Origin: Eucommia ulmoides
Taxonomy: Eukaryota > Streptophyta > Magnoliopsida > Garryales > Eucommiaceae
NCBI GenBank assembly: GCA_016647705.1
Contig: CM028329.1
Location: 54,515,231 to 54,579,230, forward strand
Length of the DNA stretch: 64,000 nucleotides
Direction: 5' to 3'
Shown: one piece after another, positions 1-63,980 of the stretch
Layout: every line of letters starts with the position of its first letter
Numbering within the stretch: position 1 is the stretch's first letter
The notes under the pieces: model-generated
The model's input: the letters and a program-made list of their open reading frames with translations, nothing else
Databases searched by the model: none
What the model was told of the DNA's origin: nothing
Made by a program: the position numbers and the translations under genes

Positions 1-1667
1 GCAACCAAAGTCGCCAGAGTATTGACGGAACTGGTGACCACTGTCGACATAAGTGCGGCGTCGCTCCCGAGCCCCATCGTCTGGAAGAGCACCGGCGCAT
101 AAAACATGATCACGTTTATTCCGGTGAATTGCTGGAAAACCTGCACATAAATTAAAACACGTTAAATCCATATACAATGAAAAAAATAAAATGTACTAAA
201 ATAATTGTCCTATTCAATTTTTTAATAGTGATTAAGTATAGTTTAATTTATTATAATATCTTCATCGAAAATCAAATAAAGAAACTGATAAAAGAGACTA
301 ATTATTTAAAATATTTTTAACTTATTTTAGAACATTTAAAAAGAGAATCTCTAATAAATTTATTAAAAATATAATATATTATACTTGTTACTACTTATTA
401 TAAAAAAAATTATAATAATTATAAGTGAATTGTTTAAAAGAAAAATATAATAAATTTCACAATTAAAAAACCAAGATTTTTTTTTTTTTATTTTTTAAAA
501 AAAAAAAAAAACTTAATACTACTTACATTATTAAAGAAAAAGTCAATGAAAAACTAATTCCAAAACAAAATAATTCAAAATTAAAAATTAAAAAAGACCT
601 GAAGAATCGCACTGCAAACTACTTGAGGGTGACTCGATCTCTTCATCAAACTCCTGAAGGGGTGATTAATCTTGTTGGCCACCTCAGTTGCATGCAATAT
701 CTCATTGAACTTGGTGTCCACGTTATGAACTCCACGGATCTTCTTGAGGATCTGGAGACCTTTTTCCTTGTGACCGCGCTCAATGAGGCTGGTGGGGGTC
801 TTGTGGATGAGGAGGGAACCAAGGCCAAGGAATATGGCCGGGATGGCGGCACCGCTGAGGGAGATCCTCCAATTGTAGGGGTGGATATTTGAGGTCACAT
901 AGTTGACTATGTTCGTGCAAAGGATTCTGACTGTGATTTTAATTTGTTAAAAAAGAGTCCAACATATATATAAGGATATAAAAATTATAAACATATAACT
1001 ATAACTAGTTGGTTACTTCGAAAAAAAAAAAACTAATTTTAAATTTCGTTTTATACTTGAATTTTAAATATTTTCTGGATTTTATTTGTTCATTTTATGT
1101 TATAGTTAGACTTTTAATTATAAGTTAATTTATTATTTAATATCATATTTTGATAATATAATTTTGATATTATAAAATTATGAGATTCAAAATTAAATAT
1201 TAAAATTGATCCAAGTAAAATAAAACTCTTATCTAGTTGAATGCAATTGAAATTTATTCGAAAGATATTAAATGAAATACTTGGTATTTATCTAGTTGAT
1301 TATATTTGAAATTTGTTTAAAACATATTTAATGAATACTCGATATTTATTACAAAATTGAAATTCAAAATTATACAAACTAAATCTATGGTTAAGATTTT
1401 GTTCATAATTATTTGATGGAAACCCCCCCTTTTTTTTTTTACCTGGTTACTGAATCTGACTCTGGCGCCGAGACAAAGCCTTCCCACGATGAGCATGGGA
1501 AGGTTCATCGCCGCGGTATTGCAAATGACACCGATGAAGAAAAAGAGGGAGGCCAACTGCATGGTGGATTTTCGGCCTAATCTCCGACGAGTCTTGGAGG
1601 CTATGAAACAACAGACAATGGCAGCCAAGTACAATGAAGACATAAAAAGCTGGAGACTGTGGTGCAT
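1..1667 (-). pseudogene. STP-type hexose transporter fragment (copy A), cut by window edge
   Basis: Copy A matches copy B closely in exons and introns, which suggests a recent tandem duplication. Visible parts on the minus strand are the first 140 bases of exon 4 (140 to the window edge), exon 3 from about 937 to 599, and exon 2 from about 1667 to 1443. Exon 1, the first third of exon 2 and the start of exon 3 are absent: relative to copy B about 82 bases spanning the intron 2 acceptor and the first ~25 codons of exon 3 are gone. What remains of exon 2 keeps the loop sequence GRKSTMQLASL, which copy B has lost, and MLIVGRLCLGA. Its right end passes directly into the 3' flank of copy B, so it has no promoter of its own. 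It should make no functional transporter. Exon 5 would lie left of the window. Confidence 0.85.
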
Positions 1668-2635
1668 TTAGGATTTTACTTTTGGAGTGCTCCCTAGGAT
1701 GATCAAATCCTAATTGACAAAAAAAAAGATATAACATTTTACCATCCAAACTAACCTTCTTGGGTATTATAATATGAAATAATTATGCACCTAAAATGTC
1801 TATGTATTCTGTATGCCATGCAGATATATTTTTACTATTACTACTATTATTATTTTTACGGTTAAAGGGTTTTATTTATTTATTTATTTATTTATTCCTC
1901 CATTATCTTTTGGATTGAAATATGGATTAATGAAATGAATATACATTTTTATTTTATTTTTTAGAATTAATTTCATTTTATTTTTGTCAAATTTAAAAAA
2001 ACCAAAACATGTTTAATGAAGTCATCTCTTAAACCCATCCTTCCAAATTCCACTCCATGGGGAATTTATTTTTCTCGTGACTCTTTTTTCTCTCTAAGTT
2101 ATCTATCAATGAGCTTTGTCCCTCAATTTTTATCTCGCACAAAATGATATTTTCTCTAAAAGTTTCCTCTCCAAGTGAAGAAAAACTCTTATTAATGATT
2201 TTTATAATTTTCCTCTAATTATAAGAAAAACAATTTTTTTGAGAAAAAAAATATATACCAAATAATTTTTCCATAAGTAAATGACCATTAAAATAAAAGA
2301 CCAAAAATAAAATATATCATCCCGTCGAAAAATAAAAAGTAAAAAAACCGATAAAAAAATATCCACAAAAAATCCAATTAATAAACACTTTTGACATTTA
2401 AATTCTTGCAACAAACGGTTCATCCATTATAATGAGCCATAATTTCGAGATGAAAGTTTTGAATGAAAGGATTGGAAAGCAGGGGCTGCTTCCTATGCTC
2501 TTTCTTCCACCCAAGAGTAGACATCCTAGATTTAGGTAATAAATGGTCTAGACCTGCTGGTTCTAACTCGCCCTCTAAGAATTTTCTTTTCTTTTCCTTT
2601 TTTAAAATGAAAATGACTAAAAAAAAAAAGAAAAA
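1668..2635. other. Intergenic spacer and 3' flank of STP copy B, no gene
   Basis: This stretch has no coding signal. From about 1737 it is the 3' flank of copy B and aligns with 53300-54240, the flank of copy C. The short segment 1668-1736 marks the junction where copy A stops. The rest is AT-rich with homopolymer runs. The short minus-strand open frame at 2202-2423 (and its counterpart at 53773-53955) is low-complexity and not a gene. Confidence 0.6.
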
Positions 2636-3790
2636 TCAAAATATCAAAGGAAAAACTACAAAACTTGATGGTTTTTTTATGTCTTCTCCCTCAACATCCA
2701 CTTCATCTGCATCGAAATAATTTTTCCAGAACCAATGCTTCTTCCATACCCTATTGTCCATCTCATCAATCAGAATACCCTTAGTCTGCGGCAGCAAAAG
2801 CGCGGCGAAAATGCCCATGATCACAATCCAGGTGGAGAAGAAGAAGAAGGTGGCGGAGTGCATGGTACAAAGCATGCTAAGAAAAGCCTGGGCGATGATG
2901 AATGTAAAGATCATGTTCGTGCTGACGGCGATGAAGAACCCGGCGGTACGTGTCTGGAGAGGGAATATTTCACTAGGGATAAGCCAGCCGAGCGGGCCCC
3001 ATGGCCAAGCAAAACCGGCAACGAAGATGCAGATCATGATGAGGACGCCGTAGGCATAAGGTTGGGGAATGACATTGCTGGATTTCAAGTGAACCGCGAG
3101 AATTCCACCAGTAATTAACTATTTAAACACACAAGAAAATAAATGTATTTCGTCATTTAATTTTCAAATAATTTAGAAAAATTATTTAAATACTTTTAAA
3201 AATATTACTAATTTAATGTTATTTGAAATTGAAAATAATTATTTTTGTGAGAAATAATTTTTATAATTTTAAAATTTTACTTTCTTGATTAGATTCTTAT
3301 AACAAAAAAATGTATGGATTACAATATTTTTGTTCAAAGAAAAAAAGTGACATTTTACTTTTAAAATTAGACCAATTAAAGGGAGAAAAATCTATTTTAT
3401 CTTAGAGTTTAATTTATTATTGTTTAAATGAGGTTGTAATAACCATAATTAAAAAAAATCTCAATTTAGGAGGCAAAGGAAAACCTAGGCAACGAGCATT
3501 TGGCAGGTGGCTTCAATAAGCAGAGTTTTCCTCCCCACTTTATCAACAAAAAATACGGCAACCAAAGTCGCCAGCGTATTGACGGAACCGGTGACCACCG
3601 CCGACATAAGTGCGGTGTCGCTCCCGAGCCCCATCGTCTGGAAGAGCACCGGCGCATAAAACATGATCACGTTTATTCCGGTGAATTGCTGGAAAACCTG
3701 AACATAAATTAAAACACCTTAAATCCATATACAATGATAAAAATAAAATGTACTAAAATTATTGTCCTATGCAATTTTTTAATAGTGATT
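1737..3790. repeat. Segmental duplication, left copy (partner about 53300-55300)
   Basis: The 3' half of STP copy B (exons 4 and 5, intron 4) and about 900 bases of 3' flank are repeated in the same orientation at about 53300-55300. The match begins at the shared stretch TTACCATC...CTAACCTT followed by GGGTATTATAATATGAAATA and runs through the 3' flank, exon 5, intron 4 and exon 4. Similarity by eye is roughly 90 percent, with small indels, clearly lower than between copies A and B. The pair now lies about 51 kb apart, with transposons between. Confidence 0.8.
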
Positions 3791-6036
3791 AAGTATAGTT
3801 TAATTTATTATAATATCTTCATCGAAAATCAAGTAAAGAAACTAATAAAAGAGACTAATTATTTAAAATAATTTTAACTTATTTTAGAACATTTAAAAAG
3901 AGAATCTCTAATAAATTTATTAAAAATATAATATATTATACTTGTTACTACTTATTATAAAAAAATTATAATAATTCTAAGTGAATTGTTCAAAAGAAAA
4001 ATATAATAAATTTCACAATTTAAAAACCAAGTATTTTATATATTTATTTCTTAAAAAAAACTTAATACTACTTGCATTATTATAGAAAAAGTCAAGGAAA
4101 AACTAATTCCAAAACAAAATAATTCAAAATTCAAAATTAAAAAAGACCTGAAGAATCGCACTGCAAACCAGTTGAGGGCGACCCGATATCTTCATCAAAC
4201 TCCTGAAGGGGTGATTAATCTTGTTGGCCACCTCAGTTGCATGTAATATCTCATTGAACTCGGTGTCCACGTTGTCAACCCCACGGATCTTCTTGAGAAT
4301 CTGGACACCTTTTTCCTTATGACCGCACTCTATGAGGCTGGTGGGGGTTTCGTGGACGAGGAGGGAGCCAAGGCCGAGGAATATGGCTGGGATGGCGGCA
4401 CCGCCGAGGGAGATCCGCCAACCGTAGGGGTGGATATTTGATGTCACATAGTTGACTATGTTCGCGCAAAGGATTCCGACTGTGATTAGGAGTAGGAAGC
4501 AGATGTTCAATCCTCCTCGGTAACGTGCTGGCGCTATTTCTGATATGAATAACGGCACCGCCTGTCATTTTAATTTGTTAAAAAAGAGTCCAACGTATAT
4601 ATAAGGATATACAAACAAGAAGTCTAGGTTTTAAAAATTATAACCATATAACTATAACTAGTTGGTTACTTAAAAAAAAATTAATTTTAAATTTCGTTTT
4701 ATACTTGAATTTTAAGTATTTTCTGGATTTTATTTGTTCATTTTATGTTATAGTTAGACTTTTAATTATAAGTTAATTTATTATTTAGTATCATATTTTG
4801 ATAATATAATTTTGATATTATAAAATTATGAGATTCAAAATTAAATATTAAAATTGATCCAAGTAAAATAGAACTCTTATCTTGTTGAATGCAATTGAAA
4901 TTTATTCGAAAGATATTTAGTGGAATACTTGGTATTTATCTAGTTGATTATAATTGAAATTTATTTAAAAAATATTTAATGAATACTCTATATTTATTAC
5001 AAAATTGAAATTCAAAATCATACAAACTAAATCTATGGTTAAGATTTTGTACATAATTATTTGATGGAAACCCTTTTTTTTTTTACTTGGTTACCGAATC
5101 CAACTCCGGCGCCAAGACAAAGCCTTCCCACGATGAGCATGGGAAGATTCATCGCCGCGGTATTGCAAATGACACCAATGAAGAAAAAGAGGGAGGGTTT
5201 TGGGCCTAATCTCCGACAAGTCTTGGAGGCTATGAAACAATAGACAATGGCAGCCAAGTACAGTGAAGATGTAAAAAGCTGGAGTCTCTGGCTGTTGTAC
5301 TTGCAATAGTTGTTATCCTTAGTGTGGTGCTTCTTCTCATACACCACCGGGAAGAATTTTATCAGGCAATCATCCATCGACGTTACTCCCCCTACAAAAT
5401 ACCAAATGATTAAAAAAAAGAACTAAAACAAGAACCGAAGATCTTGAAATTTTGAAATAAATGAGATCTAGAAAGAAAAAAAAAAAAATCAGTTTTTTAG
5501 GAGTAAAAATATAAATCTGAGAAAAAGATTACTTAATAAGCATATCAAACATATGCGTGTATATGTTGTTACAATATAAGAAATTTATTGTCTTCCATTA
5601 TTTTCTGAAACAGAAAAAATTAAAAACCAAATTCTTTTGTTACTCTTTTTTATTTTAATACAAGGAAAGTAGAAAAATATAATTTTTTGATTCTATGTTT
5701 TTGCTCTCAAAATACTAACAATATAACCAGAAAAATAGAAATCTAACCCTATGAAACCGGATTATTCGGATCTCAATATAAATCTTATTTTTTCCTTGAC
5801 TGAGATCAAGAACATTGATCATGCCCAATAAATATTAATTAACTTTTCCTTCAAAACCCTAATGGCTCAAATCTAATAACCCTAGCTTTTTCTTTTATCA
5901 TACCTGAAATACCAATTTCGTAGCCGAACATGAGGCCACCGAAAGCTGCAATAATGGTGCAGATCATCACCTGACAGCTGAGTTTCGCCGGAAAATCGGC
6001 GGCGTTGCCCGTGATGGTCATTACGGCGGCAGGCAT
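2636..6036 (-). CDS. STP: STP-family hexose/H+ symporter (copy B), five exons, with TAG as last codon of exon 4
   Basis: Predicted plasma-membrane monosaccharide/proton symporter of the plant STP family (MFS, 12 helices), closest from memory to STP6/STP8-type proteins. Minus-strand exons: 6036-5904, 5391-5087, 4561-4148, 3697-3485 and 3118-2636, all with GT donors and AG acceptors and in phase, giving 515 codons plus stop, the usual family length. Motifs seen: FGYEIGISGGVTSMDD (helix 1 and loop), [85 protein letters not shown] and LPQTKG. Start: the ATG at 6036 (MPAAVMTITG); the frame extends upstream only through a TTG. Oddities: codon 355, the last of exon 4, is TAG where relatives have CAG (Gln), and after helix 2 the usual GRK/GRR motif reads GPK with five residues missing compared with copy A. 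It may be a recent pseudogene, or be rescued by a donor nine bases upstream. Family certain, function doubtful. Confidence 0.88.
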
Positions 6037-6394: not shown

Positions 6395-7060
6395 TAATAA
6401 CGTGTATTAAAATATATACTAGTGTTTTTTGGGAGAGTCAAAATTAAATTAATATATTAAATAATTGAATTATTATTTCAATTATATGTAATTCAATTCA
6501 TATAATTTAATAAAATATTCTATACTCCATATTTATATAAGTTAATAAAATATTCTATGCTCCAATTTTTTGGGATTTTAACCCATAAATTCAAATAAAA
6601 ATGTAAATTATTTAGACCACAAAATCTTTTAATAAAGTTAAAAGTTGATTTAAATGTTTTATTAATATTTTTTTTTGGAACGTTATAAACATTCCTTGTT
6701 TTAAGGAGAAATAGTTACTCGAAAACTCGTATTTTGATTAATTATTTGATAACTCAATCCGATTCAAAATTTTATATAGACAAGATACACTAGTTTCTAT
6801 ATTATTGAAATCATAAAAAATCAGTTAATAAAATATCAACCTCATATTGGTTTTGAACTTAAAAAAGAAAATTGTTTTTAAAACAAAATAAAAATAAGAT
6901 TTTAAGTATTTTTGTAAAAAATAAAAAAATATCAATAATTTTCTATATATATTTTTTAGTTTTTATATATCGATGAAAATCAATTGATTAGCATCTCTCT
7001 ATCAACTTTTTGTCAATCATCTAGGTACCAAGAGATGATTTATAGGAAAATTAGCATATG
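6395..7060 (+). repeat. Dispersed AT-rich repeat R1, left copy
   Basis: This segment recurs in inverted orientation at about 62830-63980 and, split by a copia insertion, at about 11030-11135 plus 20920-21270. Shared anchors are CTAGTGTTTTTTGGGAGAGT, TTGATAACTCAATCCGATTC, GACAAGATACACTAGTTTC and TTGTCAATCATCTAGGTA. No coding sequence or clear terminal repeats are visible, so the class is unknown. Confidence 0.7.
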
Positions 7061-12894: not shown

Positions 12895-13243
12895 ATATAT
12901 GTGATGAAATTTAAAAAAAACGTGATTATTCAAACTATTTATCTCAGTTTACCTTTTTTTTTTTTTTTTTATCACATTTAAACACTGTGATAGTTTCTCA
13001 TATTTATATTAAAAAAAAATTACAAAAAAATTACAGGACCATTATTTAAAAAAATACTACCAAAAATTAAATAAAAAAATTTACAAAAATATTACAGCAC
13101 TATCATAAACTTGAATTTTGTACAAATGTCTAAAAATGGTGATTCAATCTTCATTCTTCATTTTTTTTTCATTAACTTCATCAAGGGAACCTGCAAAAAA
13201 TGCACATAGCAGTGCACAAAACAAAAATAGCTAATGAAATTTG

Positions 13244-13284
<41 letters not shown>

Positions 13285-15409
13285 ATACAATGCAAAAAAT
13301 GCAGAAATTTCAGCTCTTTTTAGCTAATGAAATTTCATCTCCTTTTAGCTAATGTAGAACAAATCAACGAAGAAATTACCTGCAGAAATCAACAAATCAA
13401 CAATGTACGGACATCCCTTAGGAGATTCAGCAGGTTACACAAATTAAACCCTGTTTGTTTAGTGTTTCTATTCCCCAAACCATAATTCTAGTATAAACAT
13501 GAGCTTTGAGAATTGAGTTTACCAACCAGCTCAATTGTCCGTGTCATCAATAATGGCCGTTGAGGATATAACAAAAGGTATATTAAACTGTCCATCCAGC
13601 ATAAATACATAGTAATGGATTAATTGTTGTCAGAATACACAACAATTGGATCACAGACGTAAAACAGAGAAACCAAAATATATTGGAAAAGAGCTAAAGA
13701 AGAACGTAATGGAGGGATACAGGATGCAAGATAACCCAAGTCTGCTTTGTGTCCTCATTAATTGATAATAAGAAGCAAAATAAGCCACTATGTAACCGAA
13801 TCTATTCGTGAGTTGACGAAGCACACACAAGCTGTTTTGGTGTACACTTGGTTTGGCATCCTCAAATCGGTAAACGTAAACTTTATTTGGAAAAAAAATT
13901 TACCCAAAAAACAAAAACATTTAAGACCCCAATTTTAATCTTTTAGAGGCAAAGCTACTAAAGAAACAGGAACACTAATTATGCATTCCATTCCATCATA
14001 TACACTACTAGGAAATTGAAATCGTTTATAAACTAAGTACTTATTTTGTACACTAAATAGAAAATCCAATTTGGAATAAAATGTAGTGAATCAAGTATCA
14101 GTAGCGAATCAAGTATCAGTTGCGATAAACAAAAATTAATTCAAAAACACACTCAACAGATTAGCAAAGAGAGAGAAAGAATGAAAACCTGGATTCAAAC
14201 CTACTACTAGACCATTGTGCTTTATAGGTAGGGGATGCTATCAACAGCTGTGCTTTGGAGGTGGCTCGGAACAAAAATAATCAGATTCATGAAGACAGTC
14301 AAATTCATAAGCTAAATCAAAATTGAAGACTAAAGCTAAACTACCATAATATAACTCATACAAACACTGAATAGATAACCTGCACCAGGTTCGTCCGATC
14401 CCCATGGACCCTATCACTTCCCCTATTGATGACATCCTTTTCCATCCAAGCATAAATTGTCATCGTTGTGGGAGAAGAGGGCCAGAATGGCTTGATAGGA
14501 TATTTAGCAGGCCAAATCTAGCCAAATCGAACCTCGATTGGCTAGATCTAGGTGAACAGCAGTGCCGACTCAACGATGCGAACAAATCTAGGATGGATTC
14601 TATGGTTAATCCATTTAGTGAGGATCAAACAATTGGGGAAGAGAGTGAGGATAGTGCAATTGGATCAACAAATCTAGGGTTAATCCAACCCTAATTAAAA
14701 AAATAAATAAATAAATAAACCTAGCAAATACAAGATAGATTGAGGAAGTATAGTTTAAATCGTTGCTTGGATCTGGTGTTTTTGCTTGAAGATCGTGCGA
14801 TTAGGAAAGCATTGGGCGACTTGGATGCAAAACTATGAGAAAGAAGAGAAGAGCGACCTCGAGATCGAGAGAGGCTAGAGAAGACGACGATGGCAGACGA
14901 TTGAAGAAGAAGACAATGGCGACAGTCAGAGAAAAGAGAACGAAATGAAAGCCAAAGACGACGATGACAATAAGGCTGAAGGCTTGGCGACAGTGATGGA
15001 GAAATCTCAGCGATTTCAAGATCGAGGGAGAGAGAGAGACTTCGACTGCTAGGGTTGAGCCTTGAGCGACGGCTAGGGTAGAGCAGGAAGAGATAATAGA
15101 GAATGATGTAAGTGCAAATGAAAAGGCAGAAGAAAATTTCAGTAGGAGCGGGAATGTGAAATTTCTAGCACCTTTTTTTGGTGGGTTAGTGCAAATACCA
15201 ATTAATCTCGATTATAAATAAGAACTGTGATAAAACCTACAACTTATTATCACGATTTTTTAAAACAGTGAGATAACAAATATTTTTTATCGCATAATAA
15301 ATTTTAAGTGAGATTAAATCTCATTCATATTATTATAATCACAGTTTATTTAAAAACCGAGATAAATTATATTTACTAAGCGTGATAAGACGTTATTTTT
15401 CTTGTAGTG
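12895..15409 (+). mobile_element. Non-autonomous CACTA (En/Spm) DNA transposon, left end missing
   Basis: The right end reads TTTTTCTTGTAGTG at 15396-15409, the inverted CACTACAAGAAAAA terminus of plant CACTA elements. The preceding 200 bases carry repeated subterminal motifs (TTATCACG, ACCGAGATAAATTATATTTA) and match the right end of the complete element at 42096-45733. The left part (12900-13140) matches 42290-42600, but the terminal ~200 bases are absent at the junction with the LTR at 12890. No transposase is recognisable. An open frame at 14404-14694 (96 residues, with CHRCGRRG) has no identified relative. Confidence 0.75.
13243..13280. repeat. Poly-A tract of about 38 bases
   Basis: Uninterrupted run of A inside the CACTA element. 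Its length is probably unstable and may be imprecise in the assembly. Confidence 0.9.
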
Positions 15410-41310: not shown

Positions 41311-42095
41311 TATTATCGATTCCCAATAAGAAAAAGAAAGATATATACATTCTTTGCAAATATACACTATTTATATACCTACATAGAACTTCCAATAAAA
41401 AAATTTTTCTGCTTCATCTACACCCTAAAAAAATTTAAAATACAAAAGAACAAAGTTAGACATGAAAAATTATACTGAAAAAAAAAAAGAGAAGTAACTC
41501 ATTGAAAATAACTCAAATAATTCTCACATATGAATAACTCATAAAAAAAGATAACTATTTAAGGTTATATAATTTATCACCCATTGAAATCATTAAATTT
41601 AAGAAATACCCCTTAAACATCTTAGTAAACAAAAAATATGACCAAACTAATGCAATTCTATCTCACAACAATCACGAATAAAATGTTGAATGTAATGACT
41701 ATATATCACATTCAAAAATGCACAAGAACTATTAACTACACTTGTAAGACTTGATTTTTGTTTGTGTATATTTTTATTTCTATTTTAGAACATTTAAAAA
41801 AATATTGGGTCTAATATGTTATTTAAAGTTTTAATTTAAATTTTTTGGGATTAGTATGCTAATTTTAATTTGACTTTAAAAGTTTTGGGGTTAATATGTA
41901 ATTTAAGAATTATTGGTAAGAATTTTAGAATTGAATAAATATTTATAACATTATCTTAGGATTATATATGTAATTAAAATAAAAGTATCCTTCTATTCTT
42001 ATCCATTGAAATTGAGATAAACTAAAACAAAAATATGAAATGGTGAGTGGATTTTTTTTATGAAACCACCTCAACATGAAGAAAGGATGAGAAGG

Positions 42096-45010
42096 CACTA
42101 CTAGAAAAAAAAACCTTTTTATCACGGTTAAAAACCGTGATAAAAAGGTTTTTATCACAGTTTTTGGTCCCACACCAAATCGTGATAGTATGCAATGTGA
42201 TTAAAAGTAGATTTTTTATCACAGTTAAAAACTGAGATAGAAGACTTTTTATCACAATTAAAAACCGAGACGGTAGACCTTTTATATATCTTGGTTTTCA
42301 AATGTGATCAAATTAAAAAAAAATGTGATTATTTGGGCATTATTTATCTCAGTTTTGTATCAAACCGAGATTGTTACCCTATTTTCTATCACATCTAAAA
42401 ATTGTGATAATTTCTCATATATATATTAAAAAAAAAAAAAAAACACAATTTTATAAAAATACTAAAAAAAAATAACTAAAAATGAATTTCGCATTACATA
42501 AGAATTCTACGTTAACATAAAAAACACAACATTATCTTTAATACAAAAATCATAAACTTGAATTTCTATAAATATAAATGTCTAAAATGTAAAATTAATA
42601 TCAAGTATAAAATAAATAATAATAACTAACTTATGGTGAACTAATCTATCAATGTCTCGGTCGTAGAGCATCCAAATGTGAAGTTCAACTAACTTTTGTC
42701 ATCAGGTGATTCAAAAATAAAGTCCTGCAGTTAAAAAAAACATTAAGTTAAAAAATACACTTGCAACTTAAAAAAAACACAACTAGAAAAAAAAAATTGC
42801 AGTTACAAAAACAAAATGCTTGAAAAAAAAAATCAGCTAAAAAAATGTCATTATAATCACATTTAATAAAATGCTGCATACAGAGTAAGTGGTAGATAAG
42901 AAGAAACATCATATCATGGTTGAATATAAAAGTTTACCAAACTTAGACAGCAGGCTAGTGAGGACACTAGCGATGTTCAAAACACAAGAAAAACATGAGC
43001 CAAACATATGTATTAAGCCAAACATATGTATTAAACTATCTAAATACCTAAACTTAATCACATGTTACTTCAATGTTAGGGAACATTGAAATTACTGCAT
43101 ATGAATTCATAAGAATACGAAAATGTCAAAATCATTGTCCAAATTCTTGAATAAAAACAAAATGAGAGGGTGAAAAATGAATGTTGACCCTTAATTCAAC
43201 ACAAGACAACCACGTCACAAAAACCATTTGGATTCTATAAAATCAGCCACAGCCAGGATATAATTTATTTCTAAATTCAATTCAAAATGTCAACTGCAGA
43301 AGTACAAACACAGACACATGCATACCAGTAGAGTCTGAAATGATATAGCTCATTGGACAGCTCGGCATTATTTTCCCTGCACAAGAAAATCCATAAGATT
43401 ATACAATCTCAACTTAAATCCAAAAACTGATGTATGATCATTCCTTTATTGGCTCATATATCTGATGGCAAAAGAATGGTAATTATGATAGAATAATTTA
43501 TCGCACGAATAATAATTATCATAAGTATGTTTCAGAAACTACTTTCTCATAATTATCAAGGCGATTTTTGAAGTCTCAATATCCAGCTTCAAAATCTAGC
43601 CTCTAGAACACCACCAATTACCACATAATCATCCCTAGGCATAAGAAGTCAATAATTTGAGTTCACAAACATACTCTTTAGCATAAGCTGGGCTTTGTTG
43701 AATCGTTGAGATATATATTTCTTTCAATAATCTACTTATCATTGCATATTGTCTCCAAAACAAAAAAGAATCTGTTAGGAGAAACAAAAAACCTATATCA
43801 ACTATCGCTAGAGAATTATAAGAATAAATGTAAGGAACATCTGCTGAATCAAAATCATAAGTTGAATGTAACATAAATACAAGGACAATTTCTCCTAACA
43901 GATTCTTATTTGAGACATTCAACAAGCAAGAATTCAACAGATGTTTTACTTCGGCAGACATTCAACAAGTAGCAACTAGAAGATATTAAACAAACATTTT
44001 AATTCAAAGAGCAACAATCCTAATCAAAATATGTAGAATATATTTTATTTTACATTTGATTGCAATCAATAATGTCAAAACAACTCAAATTAATTAGATT
44101 TTGTAATGACATGAACATTTTACCTCTCGGTATTCTTGATTAGCCAATTGTGCTACAAATTTCTGATAAAATTGAAAAATAAACAAACAAATTAGTAAAT
44201 TTATTAACTTCATTAATGGAACTGAGAACAGAGCAGAACTGAAACTGAGAACATAGCAAAAATAAAACAAAAATCTGGAAACATAAATTGGGAACATAAT
44301 AGAATTAGGGAACAAAACTGAGCAGAATGCTTGTCCATAGCCGCAGTAATTTCAGAACATAAAATCAAGGTCACCAAATCCATTTTCGAATCAACGATAG
44401 TATATGTTAATACGACTAATCAGAGTTAGGGTTCTAGAGGAAGGACGTACTGTATTGGGAAAAATCGAGAGAGCACTTACAGGTCGCTCTCACTCGCCTT
44501 TTCGATAACAACAAGATTTCGTCTACTTCTCCAACCTTCGATGCCTTTCCATTGTCATGCGGATGATTCGTAGTCGCAAATCGACTGGGGTCTTTCTCCA
44601 CCGTCGAAGCAATACCAAGAGCTGAGATGGAGTCTCGATTGCCTTCACCTGATCGGATTTTTTTATCAATTCAGTCGGAGGAACCCTAAATTGGTGCCAT
44701 TATATCAGTTTATGGCTGTTCAGTCGGGAAAGAGAGAAAACCTACAATGATGATAAATCGTGGAGGAGAGATAACTAGGGCTAAGCATAAGGAGCCATAC
44801 CAACTATTTCATGTATAACCGTGAATCTTAATTAGTGAGCACGGCGGCAAATCGAGTAGAGAATTGCAGTAGCCAGCGAATCGAGAGCAGCGGCGTGAGA
44901 TTTTTAGGTTTTGGCCGAGGTTAGATTGTGAGAGCAGGGAAAAGAGAGAAGGCAGAGATCGTAAGAGAGAGATCTAGAGGAATGCTTTAGTTCAGATTGG
45001 AGGCAGAGAT

Positions 45011-45043
<33 letters not shown>

Positions 45044-45733
45044 CTTCGGTTCAGATAAGAGTAGAGAACAGAAATAGGGGTGGCTGCTAGGGTTGATGAA
45101 GGAAATGGATACACGAGGAGCGGGAACACCAAATTAGACCAACGTTTTTTTTTTTTTTTTTCCGCTTGTTTTAAGTTCATTTCAGAGCTAAAAATTAATT
45201 AATTACGCTTATAAATAATAAATGTGATAAAAGCTATCAACTTATTATCATGGTTTATTAAAATAGTGAGATAAAAAATATTTTTTATCACATAACAAAT
45301 TTTAAGTGAGATTCTATCTATAGGTTAAACACACACATATATAGTAACCATCTATATATATATACACACATATGTGTATATGTAAACACTTAATAACATG
45401 GAAAGAAAAGAGTGAGAGGAGACTTACATGAGAAAGTGAGCTAGAGAGAGGGAGAGAACAAATGAAGGCTTGAGTTATAGTGAAAACACACATATATATA
45501 GATGGAAAACAAGATCCATCTCAACCCCTTTTTCTATGCATGTTTTGTTTTGGTTTTGGTTTTTTTTTTTTTTTGGCTTCCACATTCCCTCACTACAAGA
45601 AAAAAGTCTTTCTATCACGCTTACTAAATATAATTCATCTCGTCTTTCTATCACGCTTACAATCATGGTTTATTTGAAAAACGAGATGAATTATATTTAG
45701 TAAGCGTGATAGAAAGACTTTTTTCTTGTAGTG
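42096..45733 (+). mobile_element. Complete non-autonomous CACTA (En/Spm) element
   Basis: Left terminus CACTACTAGAAAAAAAAACC at 42096 and right terminus TTTTTTCTTGTAGTG ending at 45733, flanked by the 3-bp duplication AGG (42093-42095 and 45734-45736), as CACTA transposases make. Subterminal inverted motifs such as TATCACGGTTAAAAACCGTG and variants recur at 42115-42290 and near the right end. There is no recognisable transposase. The longest internal frame, 43961-43635 on the minus strand (108 residues), has no known domain. It is related to the element at 12895-15409. Just inside its right end it carries an inverted copy of its own terminus and the adjoining host DNA. Confidence 0.88.
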
Positions 45734-46005
45734 AGGGAATGTGGAAGCCAAAAAAAAAAAAAAACCAAAACCAAAACAAAACATGCATAGAAAAAGGGGT
45801 TGAGATGGATCTTGTTTTCCATCTATATATATGTGTGTTTTCACTATAACTCAAGCCTTCATTTGTTCTCTCCCTCTCTCTAGCTCACTTTCTCATGTAA
45901 GTCTCCTCTCACTCTTTTCTTTCCATGTTATTAAGTGTTTACATATACACATATGTGTGTATATATATATAGATGGTTACTATATATGTGTGTGTTTAAC
46001 CTATA
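45319..46005. repeat. Perfect inverted repeat: 324-bp arms, 39-bp spacer
   Basis: Arm 45319-45642 is the reverse complement of 45682-46005. I compared the arms base by base and saw no difference, even in a 15-base A/T run. The right arm is the last 52 bases of the CACTA element plus 272 bases of host flank. The left arm is the inverted copy, inside the element. The spacer begins with TCTTTCTATCACGCTTAC, a repeat of sequence in the left arm. The paired open frames at 45470-45854 are mirror images caused by this palindrome. Confidence 0.95.
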
Positions 46006-46084
46006 TATACATGTAGATAATATACATACACACATAGAGATATATTTAATTTATGAATAATTTAAATTAAAGAAAGAATTGTAA

Positions 46085-47105
46085 TTTTATTATAATGATA
46101 TTTTTGGTATTTCATTACCTAATAATATTCTTAATTGTTAGTTAATATTCATTCTGCAATTAAATTATTAATTTATAAATTTTATAAATTTAACTATAAT
46201 ATTTTAGTTGTAAAATTAATATTGGGTTAGGAAAATAGAACCTTTAATCTTAATAAATTTTATATAATTAAAAAATTTGGGAATGGAAAAAATTACATTT
46301 TGTTTCATACATCGCATTTCAAATTTATTTAGTTAAATTCTTAGTTTTCGCCCCTGTCGTATGTTAGGATTTCAGGAGATGTTATCTATGTTAGTTTTTC
46401 AACAGTTGCATGTTAAATTTGTAACTTTATAATGATATTTTTGGTATTTCATTGCATAGTAATATTCTTAATAGTTAGTTAATATTCTTTCTGCATTTAA
46501 ATTATTAATTTATAAATTTTATAAATTTAACTATAATATTTTAGTTGTAAAATTAATATTGGGTTAGGAAAATAGAACCTTTAATCTTAATATATTTTAT
46601 ATAATTAAAAAATTTGGGAATGGGAAAAATTGCATTTAGTTTCATACATCGCATTTCAAATTTATTTAGTTAAATTCTTAGTTTTCGCCCCTGTCGTATG
46701 TTAGGATTTCAGGAGATGTTATCTATGTTAGTTTTTCAACAGTTGCATGTTAAATTTGTAACTTTATAGTGATATTTTTGGTATTTCATTGCTTAGTAAT
46801 ATTCTAAATAGTTAGTTAATATTTTTTCTGCAATTAAATTATTAATTGATCATGATAAATTTTATAAATTTAACTATAATATTTTATTCGTAAAATTAAT
46901 ATTGGGTTGAGAAAATAGAACGTTTAATCTTAATAAATTTTATTTAATTAAAAAAATTGGGAATGAGAAAAATCGCATTTAGTTTCATGCATTGCATTTC
47001 AAATTTAATTAGTTAAATTCTTAGTTTACACCCTGTAGTATGTTAGGTTTTCAGGAGATGTCGTCTATGTCAGTTTTTTAATAGTTGCGTGTTCATTTTG
47101 TAATT
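46085..47105. repeat. Tandem repeat, three copies of a 337-bp unit
   Basis: AATGATATTTTTGGTATTTC occurs at 46094 and 46431, and with one change at 46768. Each unit then carries GTTAGTTAATATT, AAAATTAATATTGGGTT, CGCATTTCAAATTTA, GTATGTTAGG and CAGGAGATG phrases. Units 1 and 2 are nearly identical; unit 3 has diverged more. No long open frame. Confidence 0.9.
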
Positions 47106-47249
47106 ATCGATGTGAGTGTACTGTCTTCTATGTAAATTGTCAAATTATACTTTTATGCTAAATTGTGAAAAAGAAAATATTCATTAAAATGGACATTTTT
47201 TTTTAACATTACATAGGTCAGGTGAATTTTTAAATGTAGAAAGTAACTT

Positions 47250-48315
47250 TTATTATTATCCGACTATGGAATAATATGATCCCGACAGGAGGACATATCC
47301 TATAGGATGTTGTCGGTTCTAATAGGAGGACATATCATGTAGGGTATTGTGTTGTGACCTAACATGAGGTTAAGTCTTGCAGGTAGTTGATATATATTGT
47401 TATTATTGTTAATGTTATTTTTTTTTGGTTATTACATCTTTGTACTCACGCACCCGACTCACACAGACAAATGGGATTGGTGACCCATACCCATATATGC
47501 GTGGGAGGGGAATTGATCCCCGACCACAAGTGTGGGAGTTGTTGGCCATTTCCACTAGGGCCAACAACAAATCCCCGGCCATAAGTGGGGGAGTTGTTGA
47601 CGATGATGATTACCATCACTATATGGTGATTTATACTACGTGTTGGCTCAGATATTGAATGACTCTGACACTGATATCAATATTAGATTGCACAGTTGTA
47701 CATGTTACAGTACCGTTATAACTCCTGATCTTGAGGTGAAACGATCATATGGTTAGTAGGAAATATGTATGTGGTATTTTATTATATATTAAGGTAATTT
47801 GATTAGTTGATTTAAATGCATTTATTTTATTATGATGATAGTTGTGCGATTTTATTTCTACTCAGTATGCGGTTATATTTATATTTTAAAAACAGTGCTT
47901 GGAAATATGCTTGATTCATAAATTATTTTTATATTTTGAAGACAGTATACCAATAAATATTTTATCTAAGGTTCCTGAACTAGATGCGAGTCCACTACTG
48001 ATGTTAGGTAGAGTTCGAGGAAGGTGTTGTTTTATTTTTTTTAGAGTTGATCAGGAAGGGTTAGGATTTTGTACTTTTGCTATGGAATATTTTTGGATAT
48101 GTCTAATCTCAGAATTTTTATTTTATAATATTAAAATTTCAAACAGTTATGTATGTATCATTCTAGTTGGGTAACATCAAGTCGAGGGCACACCTATTAT
48201 TATTTTCATCCTAGTGGCACAGCGAAGGCGTGGTGGTGAAGTTATTTGTCTTACATCTACTTCTCCGTAATAATAAAAAGAGAGTAACCGACTGGCAGCC
48301 TTGGGATACAGGGTC
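47250..48315 (+). mobile_element. Possible Ty3-gypsy LTR fragment
   Basis: Phrases ATCCCGACAGGAGGACATAT, ACCTAACATGAGGTTAAGTC and the terminal GGGTCGTTACAACA recall LTRs of plant gypsy chromoviruses. There is no partner LTR, primer site or target duplication, so this is a tentative call. Two overlapping frames at 47387-47658 show no domain. Confidence 0.35.
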
Positions 48316-50389
48316 GTTACAACACTACAAGTGAATGACAAATTTATTTATTTTTTAGATTTTTGGACTTACACCCATTATTAATCAACATATTAAAATG
48401 GGTCTCAAGGGAAAAGCCCATACCATCTTAAACCCATTGATTTATTTATTTATTTTTAATAAAAAATCATTTTAGCGAAACACACGCACGCACTTCGATG
48501 ATGAAGAAAAACGTATCTTGCAAGACCAAAATGGAAACAATAGAACTTGAAAAATAAAATCATTTGCTCAAACAACATGAATCAAGTGTCACAAATGGAA
48601 GGGTTTACTTGATTCAATTTTTCTTTTTTATTCATATTGCCTTAAGTTGCAAAATACACCATTGTCAAATGTGTACTTATTCGGTGGAGATCAAGTATTG
48701 TGGCAGCAAGTGTTTCTTGGCAACAAGGTTCTTATGGCCGGAAAGACAGTTGATGACAAAATTTTCCAGAGGCAACGGTGTTCACGTGGAGTGTCCCGAC
48801 GGTATTTTACAGCAACGACATCTGAATTGTAAATATTTACTTTGCAACATTTTTTTTGTATGCATATAACTAAATATTTGTTACCCAATTTTTATTCTTA
48901 ATGCGAGTGTCGATATGTGATATAAAAGTTATTGTACTGTTGATAGATGATAAAAAAGTTATTGTACAGGTGTAATTACTTCAATATAGTTTAATTCATT
49001 ATTGTACAGTAAATATTTGAAAACTCGGTTTAAACATGTTGCAACATGGTTCAAGATATTGTTATACAACAAATATTAGTGATAAATGAGTTTTTGCCTA
49101 AATCAAAATGAATAATGGAGATTTTATAAAATTAATATTGAACAATGGGTCAAAATGTTTTTTTTTTTTTTTTTTTTTGTACACATGTTAGGGGAGGGCG
49201 TTGAACTCTATACGTTTCACAAAATAAATAAACTAGATATCAACAAGGCTAGAAGCCTTGGGGTAATAATAAAATTACTAATATTGCACTACTTTGGTGG
49301 AGAAATATTCAAAAAATTAAAAATAAAATCTACTAATACCTCAATTTTACCTCAACCACATTCATAGATCTCCCCCACCACAATCAAATACATCTTGCAG
49401 CCAACACGATATATGGTTTAGGGTGAGGGAGATCGAAGGGCTACAAAACATGCAATAGAGAGACAGATTGAGATAAGAGGAGGTTTAGGGTTCTTGAGGT
49501 GCGAAGGTGCATGTGAGTGAGTGAGGGAGCGTGTGAGATATTATTTTACACTGATGTCTTAAATCGTTCAAGTTAACATAACAAAAATATTAAAAGTACA
49601 CGTAAGGAAAAAAAAATTATAGCCAATAAAAGTATACTTAAAAAAAAAATTAATTTCCGACCATTCTCTTATTTTAATTCCGTTGAGGAGAAGCGGATGG
49701 AGAGTAGTGATTGCCTGTGATCGGAGGTACCTATAAGATTGATCAATCTCGGCATCTAAGGGACTCTATCCAGTGAGAGTTTGCCACGTGTTCATGATTA
49801 TTGTTTGTGCGTCCAAAAAAAGAAAAGAAAAAGAAAATCCTGGAATGTTACTTTTGCCGCTTATAATTTGTAATACAAATTCTAAGGGACTCATAATTTG
49901 CAATACAAGTTCTATTTTTATTTCAATTTGGTCCAATTATAAATCAATTTTTCATATTCTAAAATAGAAAAATTGTAGTGATATTTTATTATAACGAAAT
50001 CTATATATGATGACGACGTGGACATGACATGGAGAAAATCTTTATTTTTCACTCTCTACTTTGCTCTCTGATTTTGCCTCTGCCTTAATCTCTGACCATT
50101 TCAACGCTCCAAAATCTTTTTTTTTTTTTTTTTTCAAATATCATTGCGAGTGTGGTCGGAGATACAAAACACACAAACAAGACTAGTTTGAATAAAAAGA
50201 TAAGGCATAGAACATGTGGGGTGATTTAGATTCCATTTTTATCATTTTTAGAAAAACTTTCAAAAACATTTAACCAAAAACTTTGGAGCTTAAAATTTAA
50301 TCAAAAAAATCACTATTCATTTCTCTTGTTCGATTGTTATTGAATACCAAAAAGAATGGAATATCTATCTTAAACTACAAGGGTAAAAG
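48316..50389. other. Unassigned region, no gene recognised
   Basis: Contains repeated TTATTGTACAGTAAAT-like motifs (48920-49080), resembling the ACTGTGCAGTAA motifs at 28290-31460, so a related transposon remnant is possible. The open frame 48564-48869 (101 residues; includes GNGVHVECPDGILQQRH) and its overlapping frames have no family I recognise. Long T runs at 49158-49178 and 50117-50134. Confidence 0.35.
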
Positions 50390-53575: not shown

Positions 53576-55300
53576 AATGAAGTGATCTCTTAAATCCATC
53601 ATTCCAAATTCACTCCATATGGGGAATTTATTTTTCTCAGGAATCTTTTTCTTCTTTAAGTTATCTCACAATGAGTTTTGCCCCCCAATTTTTATCTCCC
53701 ACAAAATGATATTTTCTCTAAAAGTTTCCTCTCCAAGTAAAGAAAAACTCTTATTAATGATTTTTATAATTTTCATCTAATTATAAGGCACAATTTTTTG
53801 AGAAAAAAAATATAAACCATATAATTTTTCCACAAGTAAATGACCATTAAAATAAAAGACCAGAAATAAAATATATTATCCAGTAGAAAAATAAAAAGTA
53901 AAAAAACCGATAAACAATATCCACCAAAAATCCAATTAATAAAAACTTTTGACATTTAAATTCTTGCAAGAAATGGTTCATCCATGATAATTAGCTACAG
54001 TTTCGAGATGAAAGTTTTGAATGAAAGGTTTGGAAAGTAGGGGCGGCTTCCTATGCTCTTTCTTCCAACCAAGAGTAGACAACCTTGATGTAGGTAATAA
54101 ACGGTCTAGACCTGCTAGTTCTAACTTGCCCTCTTAGAACTTTCTTTTCTTTTTTTTTCTTTTTTTAAAATGAAAATGACTAGAAAAAAATCAAAATATT
54201 ATAGGAAAAACTACAAAACTTGACGGTTTTTTATGTCTCCTCACTCAACATCAACTTTATCCGCATCGAAATAACTTTTCCAAAACCAATGCTTCTTCCA
54301 TACCCTGAATTCTATCTCGTCGATCGAAATACCCTTAGTCTCTGGCAGCAAAAACACAGCAAAAGTGCCCATGATCACGATCCAAGCGGAGAAGAAGAAG
54401 AAGGTGGCAGAGCGTATAGTACAAAGCATGCTAAGGAAAGCTTGGGCGATGATGAACTTAAAGATCATGTTCGTGTTGAGGGTGATGAAGAACCCAACGG
54501 TGCTAATCTGGAGAGGGAAGATTTCGCTAGGGATAAGCTAGTTGAGCAAGCCCCATGACCAAGCAAAACCGGCAACGAAGATGCAGATCATGACGAGGAC
54601 GTCGTACGCATGAGGTTGGGGATTGACATTGCTGGATTTCAAGTGAACTGCCAGAATTCCACCGGTAATTAACTATTTAAACACACAAGAAAATAAATGT
54701 ATTTCCTCATTTATTTTTCTAATAATTTATAAATATTTTTTAAATACTTTTGAAAAATATTACTAATTTATTGTTATTTCAAATTGAAAGTAATTATTTT
54801 TGTGAGAAATAATTTTTATAATTTTAAAATTTTACTTTCTTGATTAGATTCTTATGACAAAAAGGTGTGGATTAAAATATTTTTGTTCAAAGAAAAAATA
54901 TGATATTTACTTTAAAAATCAGACCAATTTGGGGTATAATTGAAGGGAGAAAATATGTTTTATCTTAAAGTTTAATTTATTATTGTTTAAATGAGGTTGT
55001 AATAACCATAATTAAAAAAGCTCAATTTAGGAGGCAAAAGAAAACATGGGCAACGAGCATTTTGGCAAGCGGCTTCAATAAGCAGAGTCTTCCTCCCCAC
55101 TTAATCAAAGAAAAATACAGCAACGAAAGTCGCCACCGTATTGACGGAACCGGTGACCACCGCCAACAAAAGTGCGGCGTTGCTCCAGAGCCCCATCGTC
55201 TGAAAGAGCACCGGCGCATAGAACATGATCACATTTATTCCTGTGAATTGCTAGAAAACCCGCACAAATTAATGCACTTTAAATCCGTATACAATTTAAA
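53300..55300. repeat. Segmental duplication, right copy (partner about 1737-3790)
   Basis: Same orientation as the left copy; it holds the last two exons of STP copy C, intron 4 and the 3' flank. It fades out in intron 3 near 55300, followed by a second short copy of the exon 4 start. Confidence 0.8.
54241..55259 (-). pseudogene. STP hexose transporter 3' fragment (copy C)
   Basis: Only exon 4 (about 55259-55040) and exon 5 (54672-54241) remain, matching copy B. Exon 5 gives LITGGILAVHLKSSNV, MICIFVAGFAWSWG and SAWIVIMGTFAVFLLPETKG, clearly STP helices 9 to 12. Several lesions make it a pseudogene: the intron 3 acceptor reads CG instead of AG; the third codon of exon 4 is TAG (Gln in copy B); an extra A shifts the frame near 55066; the Trp codon of the conserved PLGW in exon 5 is a stop; and a TGA removes the last 13 residues. 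Exons 1-3 are absent. It is more diverged from copy B than copy A is, so it stems from an older duplication. Confidence 0.88.
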
Positions 55301-62829: not shown

Positions 62830-63980
62830 ATGGATATTAAATTTAAGAAAATTATAGAAATAATATATTGATAGTAAACTTACTAATACTAATGAAATAT
62901 TAAATTTACGAAAATTAAATTAAAAAATAATATAAAGAGAAAATAATATACAAAAATTATGAACACTAAATTGATGAAAATTAGAAAGATAATGGGTGGA
63001 CATTAAACTAATAATACTGAAACATTAGTTTATAATAATAGAATTAAATAAATAATACATTCATTAGTTTCAATTTTTTTCTTACAGCCTTCGGGTCCTA
63101 CACTATAAATCATCTCATACTACCTAGATGATTGACAAAAAAATTGACAGAAAGATGCTAATCAATTAATTTTCATCGATCTGATATAAAAACTAAAAAA
63201 TATATATAAAAAATTATTGATATTTTTTTATTGTTTAAAAAAATACTTAAAACTTATTTTTTATTTTGTTTTTACTATTAAAAACAGTTTCTTTTTTAAG
63301 TTCAAAACAAATGTGAGTTCAATATTTTATTAACAGATTTTTGATGATTTCAATAATATAGAAACTAGTGTACTTTATCTATATAAAATTTTGAATTGGA
63401 TTGAGTTATCTAATAATCAGTCAAAATACGAGTTTTCACGTAACTATTGCTCCTTAAAACAAGGAATATTTATAACGTTCCAAAAAAATAAATTAATAAA
63501 ACATTTAAATCAAATTTTAACTTCATTAAAAGATTTTGTGGTCTAAATACTTTACATTTTTATTTGAATTTGTGCGTTAAAATCCCATAAAATAGGAGCC
63601 TAGAATATTTTATTAAATTATATAAATATGGAGTATAGAATATTGGGTTAATTAAAGTTGTGGTTTGTATATCGCCACTTAACCCTCTGTAATTAGGTTT
63701 TGTTGCACTTTACCACTTGATGTAGGCATAATCACAGGGAGCAAAGTGCTTACGAGAGGGGTAAAGTAAAACAAATGTCTAATCATAGGAGGGTAAGTGA
63801 TGACGTTCAAACTATAGGAGAATAAAGTGCAAATGAGTCAATCCATAGGGATAAAGTTTAATTAACCCCAGAATATTTCATTACATTATACGAATTGAAT
63901 TACATATAATTGAAATAATAATTCAATTATTTAATATATTAGTTTAATTTTGACTCTCCCAAAAAACACTAGTACATATT
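62830..63980 (-). repeat. Dispersed repeat R1 with tandem-array units, inverted right copy
   Basis: Read on the minus strand it aligns with 6395-7350, starting at CTAGTGTTTTTTGGGAGAGT, passing TCAATCATCTAGGTA and ending in one to two units of the AT-rich array (62830-63010). It is interrupted by a small MITE at 63645-63869. The last ~20 bases of the window (from TTAATAGGGTTAATAGC) no longer match R1 and may begin another insertion. Confidence 0.78.
63645..63869. mobile_element. 225-bp hAT-type MITE in R1
   Basis: Termini GGGTTAATTAAAGTTGTGG on the left and ATAAAGTTTAATTAACCCC on the right are inverted repeats, flanked by the exact 8-bp duplication AGAATATT (63637-63644 and 63870-63877). The left R1 copy has the empty site near 6515-6525, confirming an insertion. 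Confidence 0.85.

Follow-up and report, generated by a model that had tools for sequence, protein, structure and literature searches.

How did the end of a CACTA-like transposon, together with the host DNA beside it, come to be copied in inverted orientation into the transposon itself? The question is raised by a locus within a 64,000-nt stretch of Eucommia ulmoides DNA (C5:54515231-54579230), which was analysed as a whole and is referred to as the window.

The inverted repeat and its CACTA-like element

Positions 45320-45643 are the exact reverse complement of 45681-46004, with 324 of 324 nucleotides paired and a loop of 37 nt separating the two arms (Table 1). An additional complementary pair outside the arms, 45319/46005, is the junction base common to both sides. 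The identical 324-bp inverted repeat of a preliminary description of this DNA is therefore real; its division of the arm into 52 + 272 bases and its spacer of 39 become 53 nt of transposon plus 271 nt of host DNA and 37 nt, respectively. The spacer does repeat a stretch of the arm, as had been noted, over 17 nt (45644-45660, the last four, TTAC, being native) instead of 18. The lengths of the 324-nt arm and of the 17-nt spacer repeat exclude a chance match.

The window was scanned for exact inverted repeats of at least 40 nt, and the best eight were examined. The next-best has 50-nt arms 57 kb apart (a perfect match between 6450-6499 and 63892-63941) and the rest belong to one AT run; this run aside, no second short-spaced repeat of that kind was present among the eight. 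A chance or AT-rich palindrome was ruled out for the 324-nt repeat by its 324/324 match.

Table 1. Coordinates of the features at the inverted repeat (window positions).
Feature	Position	Strand	Remark
CACTA-like DNA transposon, apparently non-autonomous	42096-45733	+	left end CACTACTAGAAA, right end TTTCTTGTAGTG
AGG target-site duplication, left copy	42093-42095	.	
AGG target-site duplication, right copy	45734-45736	.	
Near-perfect palindrome, 26 bp	45267-45292	.	24 of 26 paired; 27 bp left of break
Left junction, CTATCT	45314-45319	+	1 shared base T, within TATCT/TATAT match, 4 of 5
Left arm, new inverted copy of 45681-46004	45320-45643	-	without counterpart in L009, L010, L011, L020, L021
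Left arm, host-flank part	45320-45590	-	
Left arm, CACTA right-end part	45591-45643	-	
Second templated patch, inverted copy of right-end sequence	45644-45656	-	13 nt; 17 nt including native TTAC 45657-45660
Native element sequence TTACAATCATGGTTTATTTGAAAA, now part of hairpin loop	45657-45680	+	from alignment with relatives
Right arm, original	45681-46004	+	in all three filled paralogs; flank part in empty sites fetched
Right arm, CACTA right end	45681-45733	+	53 nt
Right arm, host flank	45734-46004	+	271 nt

The element has the CACTA...TAGTG termini of the CACTA (En/Spm) group, and its right terminus, TTTTCTTGTAGTG, finishes at 45733. It measures 3638 bp with the insert and about 3312 bp before the insertion. 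The same element is present at three paralogous sites (L009-L011) and at two sites in other parts of the genome, L020 and L021, and the copies are bordered by 3-bp target-site duplications: AGG here, TCA at L020 and AAA at L021. Intact ends and an AGG duplication, as described earlier, were confirmed for 42096-45733. Neither of the two interior open reading frames scanned (43635-43961 and 44434-44670) gave a Pfam match, and the element is probably non-autonomous. Within it, the stretch 44400-45140 is richer in GC (45% vs 32% for 42096-45319) and on the minus strand has, by eye, the look of a plant 5' leader, GA run included; were this leader real, the element's promoter would point away from the inverted repeat. 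The window also holds a second, diverged right end of the same CACTA family with comparable subterminal sequence at 15200-15409 (end 15398-15409, 83-87% alike), and a weaker match at 12899-13082 (73% alike).

At the site of the insert, the sequence of the siblings is GTGAGATTATATCT-CATTCATATTG-TTACAATCA, apart from single-base differences between them, and the window reads GTGAGATTCTATCT, the 324-nt arm, CTTTCTATCACGC and TTACAATCA. The net change is 337 nt in place of 11 bp. Five close copies have 11 bp in the replaced stretch, between TATCT and TTAC, where the preliminary description had placed about 40 bp between its anchors; even in its own comparison element at 15.3 kb, about 20 bp lie between those anchors. 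The junctions overlap by 4 nt (TTAC), 2 nt (GT) and 1 nt (T). Summed, this microhomology of 7 nt compares with an expected mean of 4.3 for random joins in the same region (P about 0.05), and as evidence for a mechanism it is weak. A match of 6 of 7 at the left junction was discarded, direct comparison giving 4 of 5. Six nucleotides from that junction, position 45314 is C in the window and A in six of six relatives, which could reflect either an error of repair or ordinary divergence. The 26-bp palindrome also forms a hairpin in the predicted fold of the ancestral copy L009, and another family copy, L061, carries a perfect 25-nt version of it; the palindrome is a possible fragile site.

Ancestral state, age and occurrence in the genome

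A search of the 947-Mb genome yielded 369 candidates, of which 40 were scored. The arm and its flank recur at C5:54463403, 54362185 and 54665567, roughly 100 kb apart, and these three loci align with the window across several kilobases. All three are filled with the same CACTA insertion and none of them has the inverted left arm. The right AGG is the same at each; the left AGG is seen at two, as the L010 stretch begins inside the element. Both unlinked copies of the element, L020 and L021 (C10 and C9), likewise lack the left arm. Matches to the flank without an element end were found in at least 13 places among the candidates scored; at all eight of those fetched the two flanks are joined directly, and the uninterrupted sequence is AAGGGAA in seven and AAGTGAA in L016. 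Filled paralogs without the arm, together with the empty sites, indicate that the CACTA insertion came first, that the locus then multiplied, and that the inverted copy was added later at the window's locus. Judged by this comparison, the inverted copy is derived, not ancestral. The absence of the left arm from all three paralogs with the same insertion also bears out the earlier view that the left arm was copied from the right one.

From 54.30 to 54.67 Mb, C5 consists of a series of units in which CACTA-filled and empty sites alternate. A Pfam scan of 20 open reading frames in the window gave four matches to Sugar_tr above the cut-off, all sugar transporter frames on the minus strand (1317-4564 and 54241-54537), the closest of them some 8 kb away from the repeat; for the remaining 16 there was no match above a curated cut-off. 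Adjoining the right arm, 46090-47103 comprises three tandem 337-bp units, the first two 97% alike, and sequence related to them occurs in the filled paralogs as well as in the empty sites L017 and L018.

The arms are identical to each other, the A15 run and the TA/CA runs included, and jointly carry two states private to the window, the A15 run and one G, that are absent in three of three paralogs (the count of private columns is eight, of which five are trimmed ends and two the A run). Because both arms share these states, the copying is later than the states themselves. Divergence between the paralogs and the window is 2.4-2.9% for the right flank and 0.9-2.2% for the arm. At 2.4%, the probability of zero differences in 325 nt is 0.0003; as it reaches 0.048 at 0.93%, the private states are the firmer argument for age. 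If plants are assumed to accumulate between 7e-9 and 1.3e-8 substitutions per site per year, the age has a 95% upper limit of 0.36-0.66 million years, provided that the arms have not been homogenised by conversion. Identical arms and private states common to both thus indicate that the event is recent, in line with the very recent origin first proposed.

A genome-wide pattern search for exact matches found two facing CACTA ends 116-145 bp apart at this site only. Searched with a tolerance of three mismatches, a 35-nt pattern of the right end gave 124 matches, 122 of them outside the window; by eye, among the 100 matches listed of the 124, the window's two form the only close pair on opposite strands. 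Forty-five of the 122 outside matches were examined (40 surveyed and five close copies), including L031, in which no end is recognisable within one mismatch. The initial survey applied a low-complexity filter and considered the three best repeats of each locus; without any complexity filter, exact inverted repeats with arms of 25 nt or longer overlapped a CACTA end in 0 of the 45 loci. A recurrent trait of this CACTA family was rejected on that count. The 143-bp stretch between the facing ends has no other copy among the scored candidates or as an exact genome pattern, and no mobilised copy was found. A single occurrence in the genome, as seen, is what would be expected of a repair accident.

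Some of the loci examined carry repeats away from their ends. These are the 25-nt palindrome in L061 and four in a 1.3-kb insertion in the same CACTA element of L010 (L010:320-1630; inverted repeats of up to 88 nt exact). The ends of this insertion show a 9-bp overlap, and it is probably another transposon.

Origin of the inverted copy

We favour, with somewhat better than even confidence, fold-back repair of one broken end as the event that made the inverted repeat. The old CACTA insertion would have suffered a double-strand break, or a collapsed fork, in its right subterminal region; resection of the right-hand end would follow, and the 3' strand of that end would fold back on itself. Its 3'-terminal GTAA would pair with TTAC about 40 nt upstream (minus strand) and prime the copying of 13-15 nt; the new 3' end would then slip and re-pair by 2 nt (AC on GT) nearer the loop, and about 325 nt would be copied outward, across the transposon end and the AGG and on through the host flank. 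The extended end, once released, would be joined to the left break end by 1 shared base with a loss of 11 bp, and the end product would be a perfect inverted repeat with a 37-nt loop. The break as initiating event, the strand direction and the polymerase (fold-back synthesis of the Pol theta or Pol delta type) are presumed in this scheme, the product alone being no proof of the direction of synthesis. If synthesis stopped on reaching the start of the resected complementary strand, the length of the arm would be a measure of the resection tract.

What the sequence provides in this respect is an insert that is an inverted copy of the DNA adjoining the break, with priming matches of TTAC/GTAA (39-nt loop) and then GT/AC (37-nt loop). 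Fold-back synthesis simulated on the native right strand reproduced the observed sequence letter for letter; the pairing sites were chosen by hand, which makes this a demonstration that the three-step path is sufficient, not that it is unique. By chance, 302 of 900 positions in the region have a 4-nt fold-back partner within 60 nt. Against fold-back stands the requirement for a single strand of at least 350 nt. The preliminary description had the other strand being copied and the spacer repeat arising as template-switch filler; both proposals hold, a single fold-back strand accounting for every base.

The main rival is an inter-strand template switch at a replication fork (four-point model, order 1-4-3-2), by which a rightward nascent strand would leave 45319, copy the opposite strand from 46004 to 45681, slip once and return 11 bp ahead of the point it had left. 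It would yield the same product, its order is one of two majority types in great apes (PMC7954356), and the near-perfect palindrome is only 27 bp away. We nevertheless regard it as unlikely: a single nucleotide would have to prime the first switch, onto a site some 360 bp further on in the ancestral sequence, and the 4-nt pairing, the strongest of the three, would be left to the end, whereas fold-back has the strongest pairing first and no distant jump, a difference that is not decisive. Aborted transposition, put forward in the preliminary description, would take the form of gap repair after CACTA excision, with a gap refilled from the sister and tracts misjoined with template switching. A break close to the element terminus would suit this course, as would the filler DNA reported for 58 of 94 putative rice excisions (mean 13 bp, 1-123 bp; PMC4423477). 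Yet the break lies 78-88 bp inside the element, away from the transposase cut, the loss amounts to no more than 11 bp (0.3% of the element) and both ends are intact; Tan et al. 2021 treat small gaps as transposition-independent (PMC8277862). Excision sites in rice and other grasses, moreover, have an excess of mutations within 3 kb (PMC5023962). Right beside the junction no such excess was found relative to the two nearest paralogs, in a comparison that covered 43927-45319, 45661-46080 and 47110-49500: the window has 14 private substitutions in 43927-45319, vs 13 in L009 and 15 in L010, and three in 45661-46080, vs one and three. In L011, a more distant paralog, the numbers are higher (62 and six). 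Farther out, 47110-49500 has 23 in the window vs 18, 22 and 42 in the paralogs, and a single bin, 47110-47499, does favour excision repair, with nine vs two (L009), five (L010) and 12 (L011). Transposase involvement is unlikely, and gap repair after excision we consider improbable; since fold-back of one broken end accounts for everything, excision is not required.

More improbable still is an assembly or library artefact, in which a chimeric fold-back read was built into the contig. Arms that are identical even in the A15 and TA/CA runs would be explained in this way, but a fold-back read has one junction and a mirror that does not return, and the locus has three junctions, an 11-bp replacement and a correct return; a chimera would also have to dominate the consensus. 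We attach hardly any credence to a separate inserted element, either a hairpin MITE or a second CACTA, in place of a copy of the flank. The left arm does hold sequence resembling a CACTA left end at 45591. Its 271 nt of host flank, however, are also present in the eight fetched element-free sites, the right arm is native, which leaves no target duplication around a separate insert, and other exact copies of the arrangement were not found in the genome. An independent element was accordingly rejected on flank identity, the native right arm and single occurrence.

Relation to known systems and possible consequences

Fold-back of one broken end, our preferred explanation, has a counterpart in yeast. 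The fold-back insertions at double-strand breaks described in PMC11724301 have a 41-nt loop, an imperfect 10-bp priming match and 0-5 nt (median 2) at the other end, and are mostly 5-34 bp, some just over 150. The event described here resembles them in its nearby short inverted match, its loop of about 40 nt, its self-copying and its end joining over a few nucleotides. It differs in being primed by 4 and then 2 nt and in the copying of about 325 nt; its arm exceeds most yeast fold-backs about tenfold in length, and the insert of 337 nt lies outside their length range, which is no strict definition, so that the event works like the yeast class without being assigned to it. Two terminal base pairs suffice for human Pol theta to start stem-loop synthesis in vitro, and the enzyme may switch to other pairings (PMC11292364). 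Two-pair priming, re-pairing and an inverted repeat in the product are shared with the present case; that study concerns the human enzyme in vitro and short synthesis, whereas here Pol theta is a candidate only. Short-range template-switch mutations, too, produce a perfect inverted repeat and hairpin in one event (PMC7954356, PMC8794818), but are far shorter, the largest such pattern in the RNA-gene study being 59 bp.

The locus is a nascent gap-filled 'Pack' CACTA. Host DNA (45320-45590) is captured between transposon ends, and the capture-free element is ancestral at the same site, as found in three of three filled paralogs. As in the gap-filled single-copy Pack-TIRs that Tan et al. describe in animals, where microhomology has a median of 2 bp, adjacent host DNA was captured after an internal break with microhomology and a small gap (PMC8277862). 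In contrast to these, the present case is from a plant, its filler consists of the directly adjoining flank and the element's own end in inverted orientation, and the break is close to the terminus; at 78-88 bp from it, in an element of about 3.3 kb, it departs from the interior breakpoints of Pack-TIRs, which are a tendency and no rule. Pack-CACTAs may also form by aberrant excision of tandem CACTAs (Catoni 2019, via the 2026 review PMC13317346). That route likewise gives a CACTA host DNA, but the present capture is inverted, leaves both ends in place and requires no second element. In the open-licence papers searched we found no report of inverted duplication of a plant transposon via sister-chromatid gap repair.

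A transcript across the repeat is predicted to pair almost completely (-573 kcal/mol over 687 nt), and no Rfam match was found in 44800-46600. Of 305 exact 21-mers of the arm, 225, 211 and 160 are shared with the filled sites, 8-109 with the eight empty sites, and 12 and four with the unlinked element copies. Hairpin-based silencing by the locus, with the small RNAs suggested in the preliminary description, is no more than a possibility. A comparison is offered by Mu killer, an inverted duplication of part of a transposon with its terminus, proposed as a source of hairpin RNA (PMC3440606). The arms here are 324 nt vs about 2 kb (half of a hairpin of about 4 kb), no transposase gene is included, and the locus is known from its sequence only. 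We think it improbable that a single long fold-back event has created a young plant hairpin locus whose small RNAs methylate both the CACTA family and the flanks in the sugar-transporter array, and a second transposase end in addition. If true, this would be a Mu killer caught at birth, with read-through transcription as the source of small RNAs, and the inverted internal terminus at 45591 would be a second, misoriented end and a substrate for rearranging transposition.

Tan et al. left gap filling open for plant Pack-MULEs (PMC8277862). At base resolution, and with paralogs nearby that retain the ancestral form, the locus presents a plant transposon that gained host DNA and a perfect hairpin, apparently in one repair event without transposition. 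The length of its arms suggests that fold-back synthesis at plant breaks can run for hundreds of bases; if so, young inverted-repeat loci supplying small-RNA pathways could arise in a simple way.
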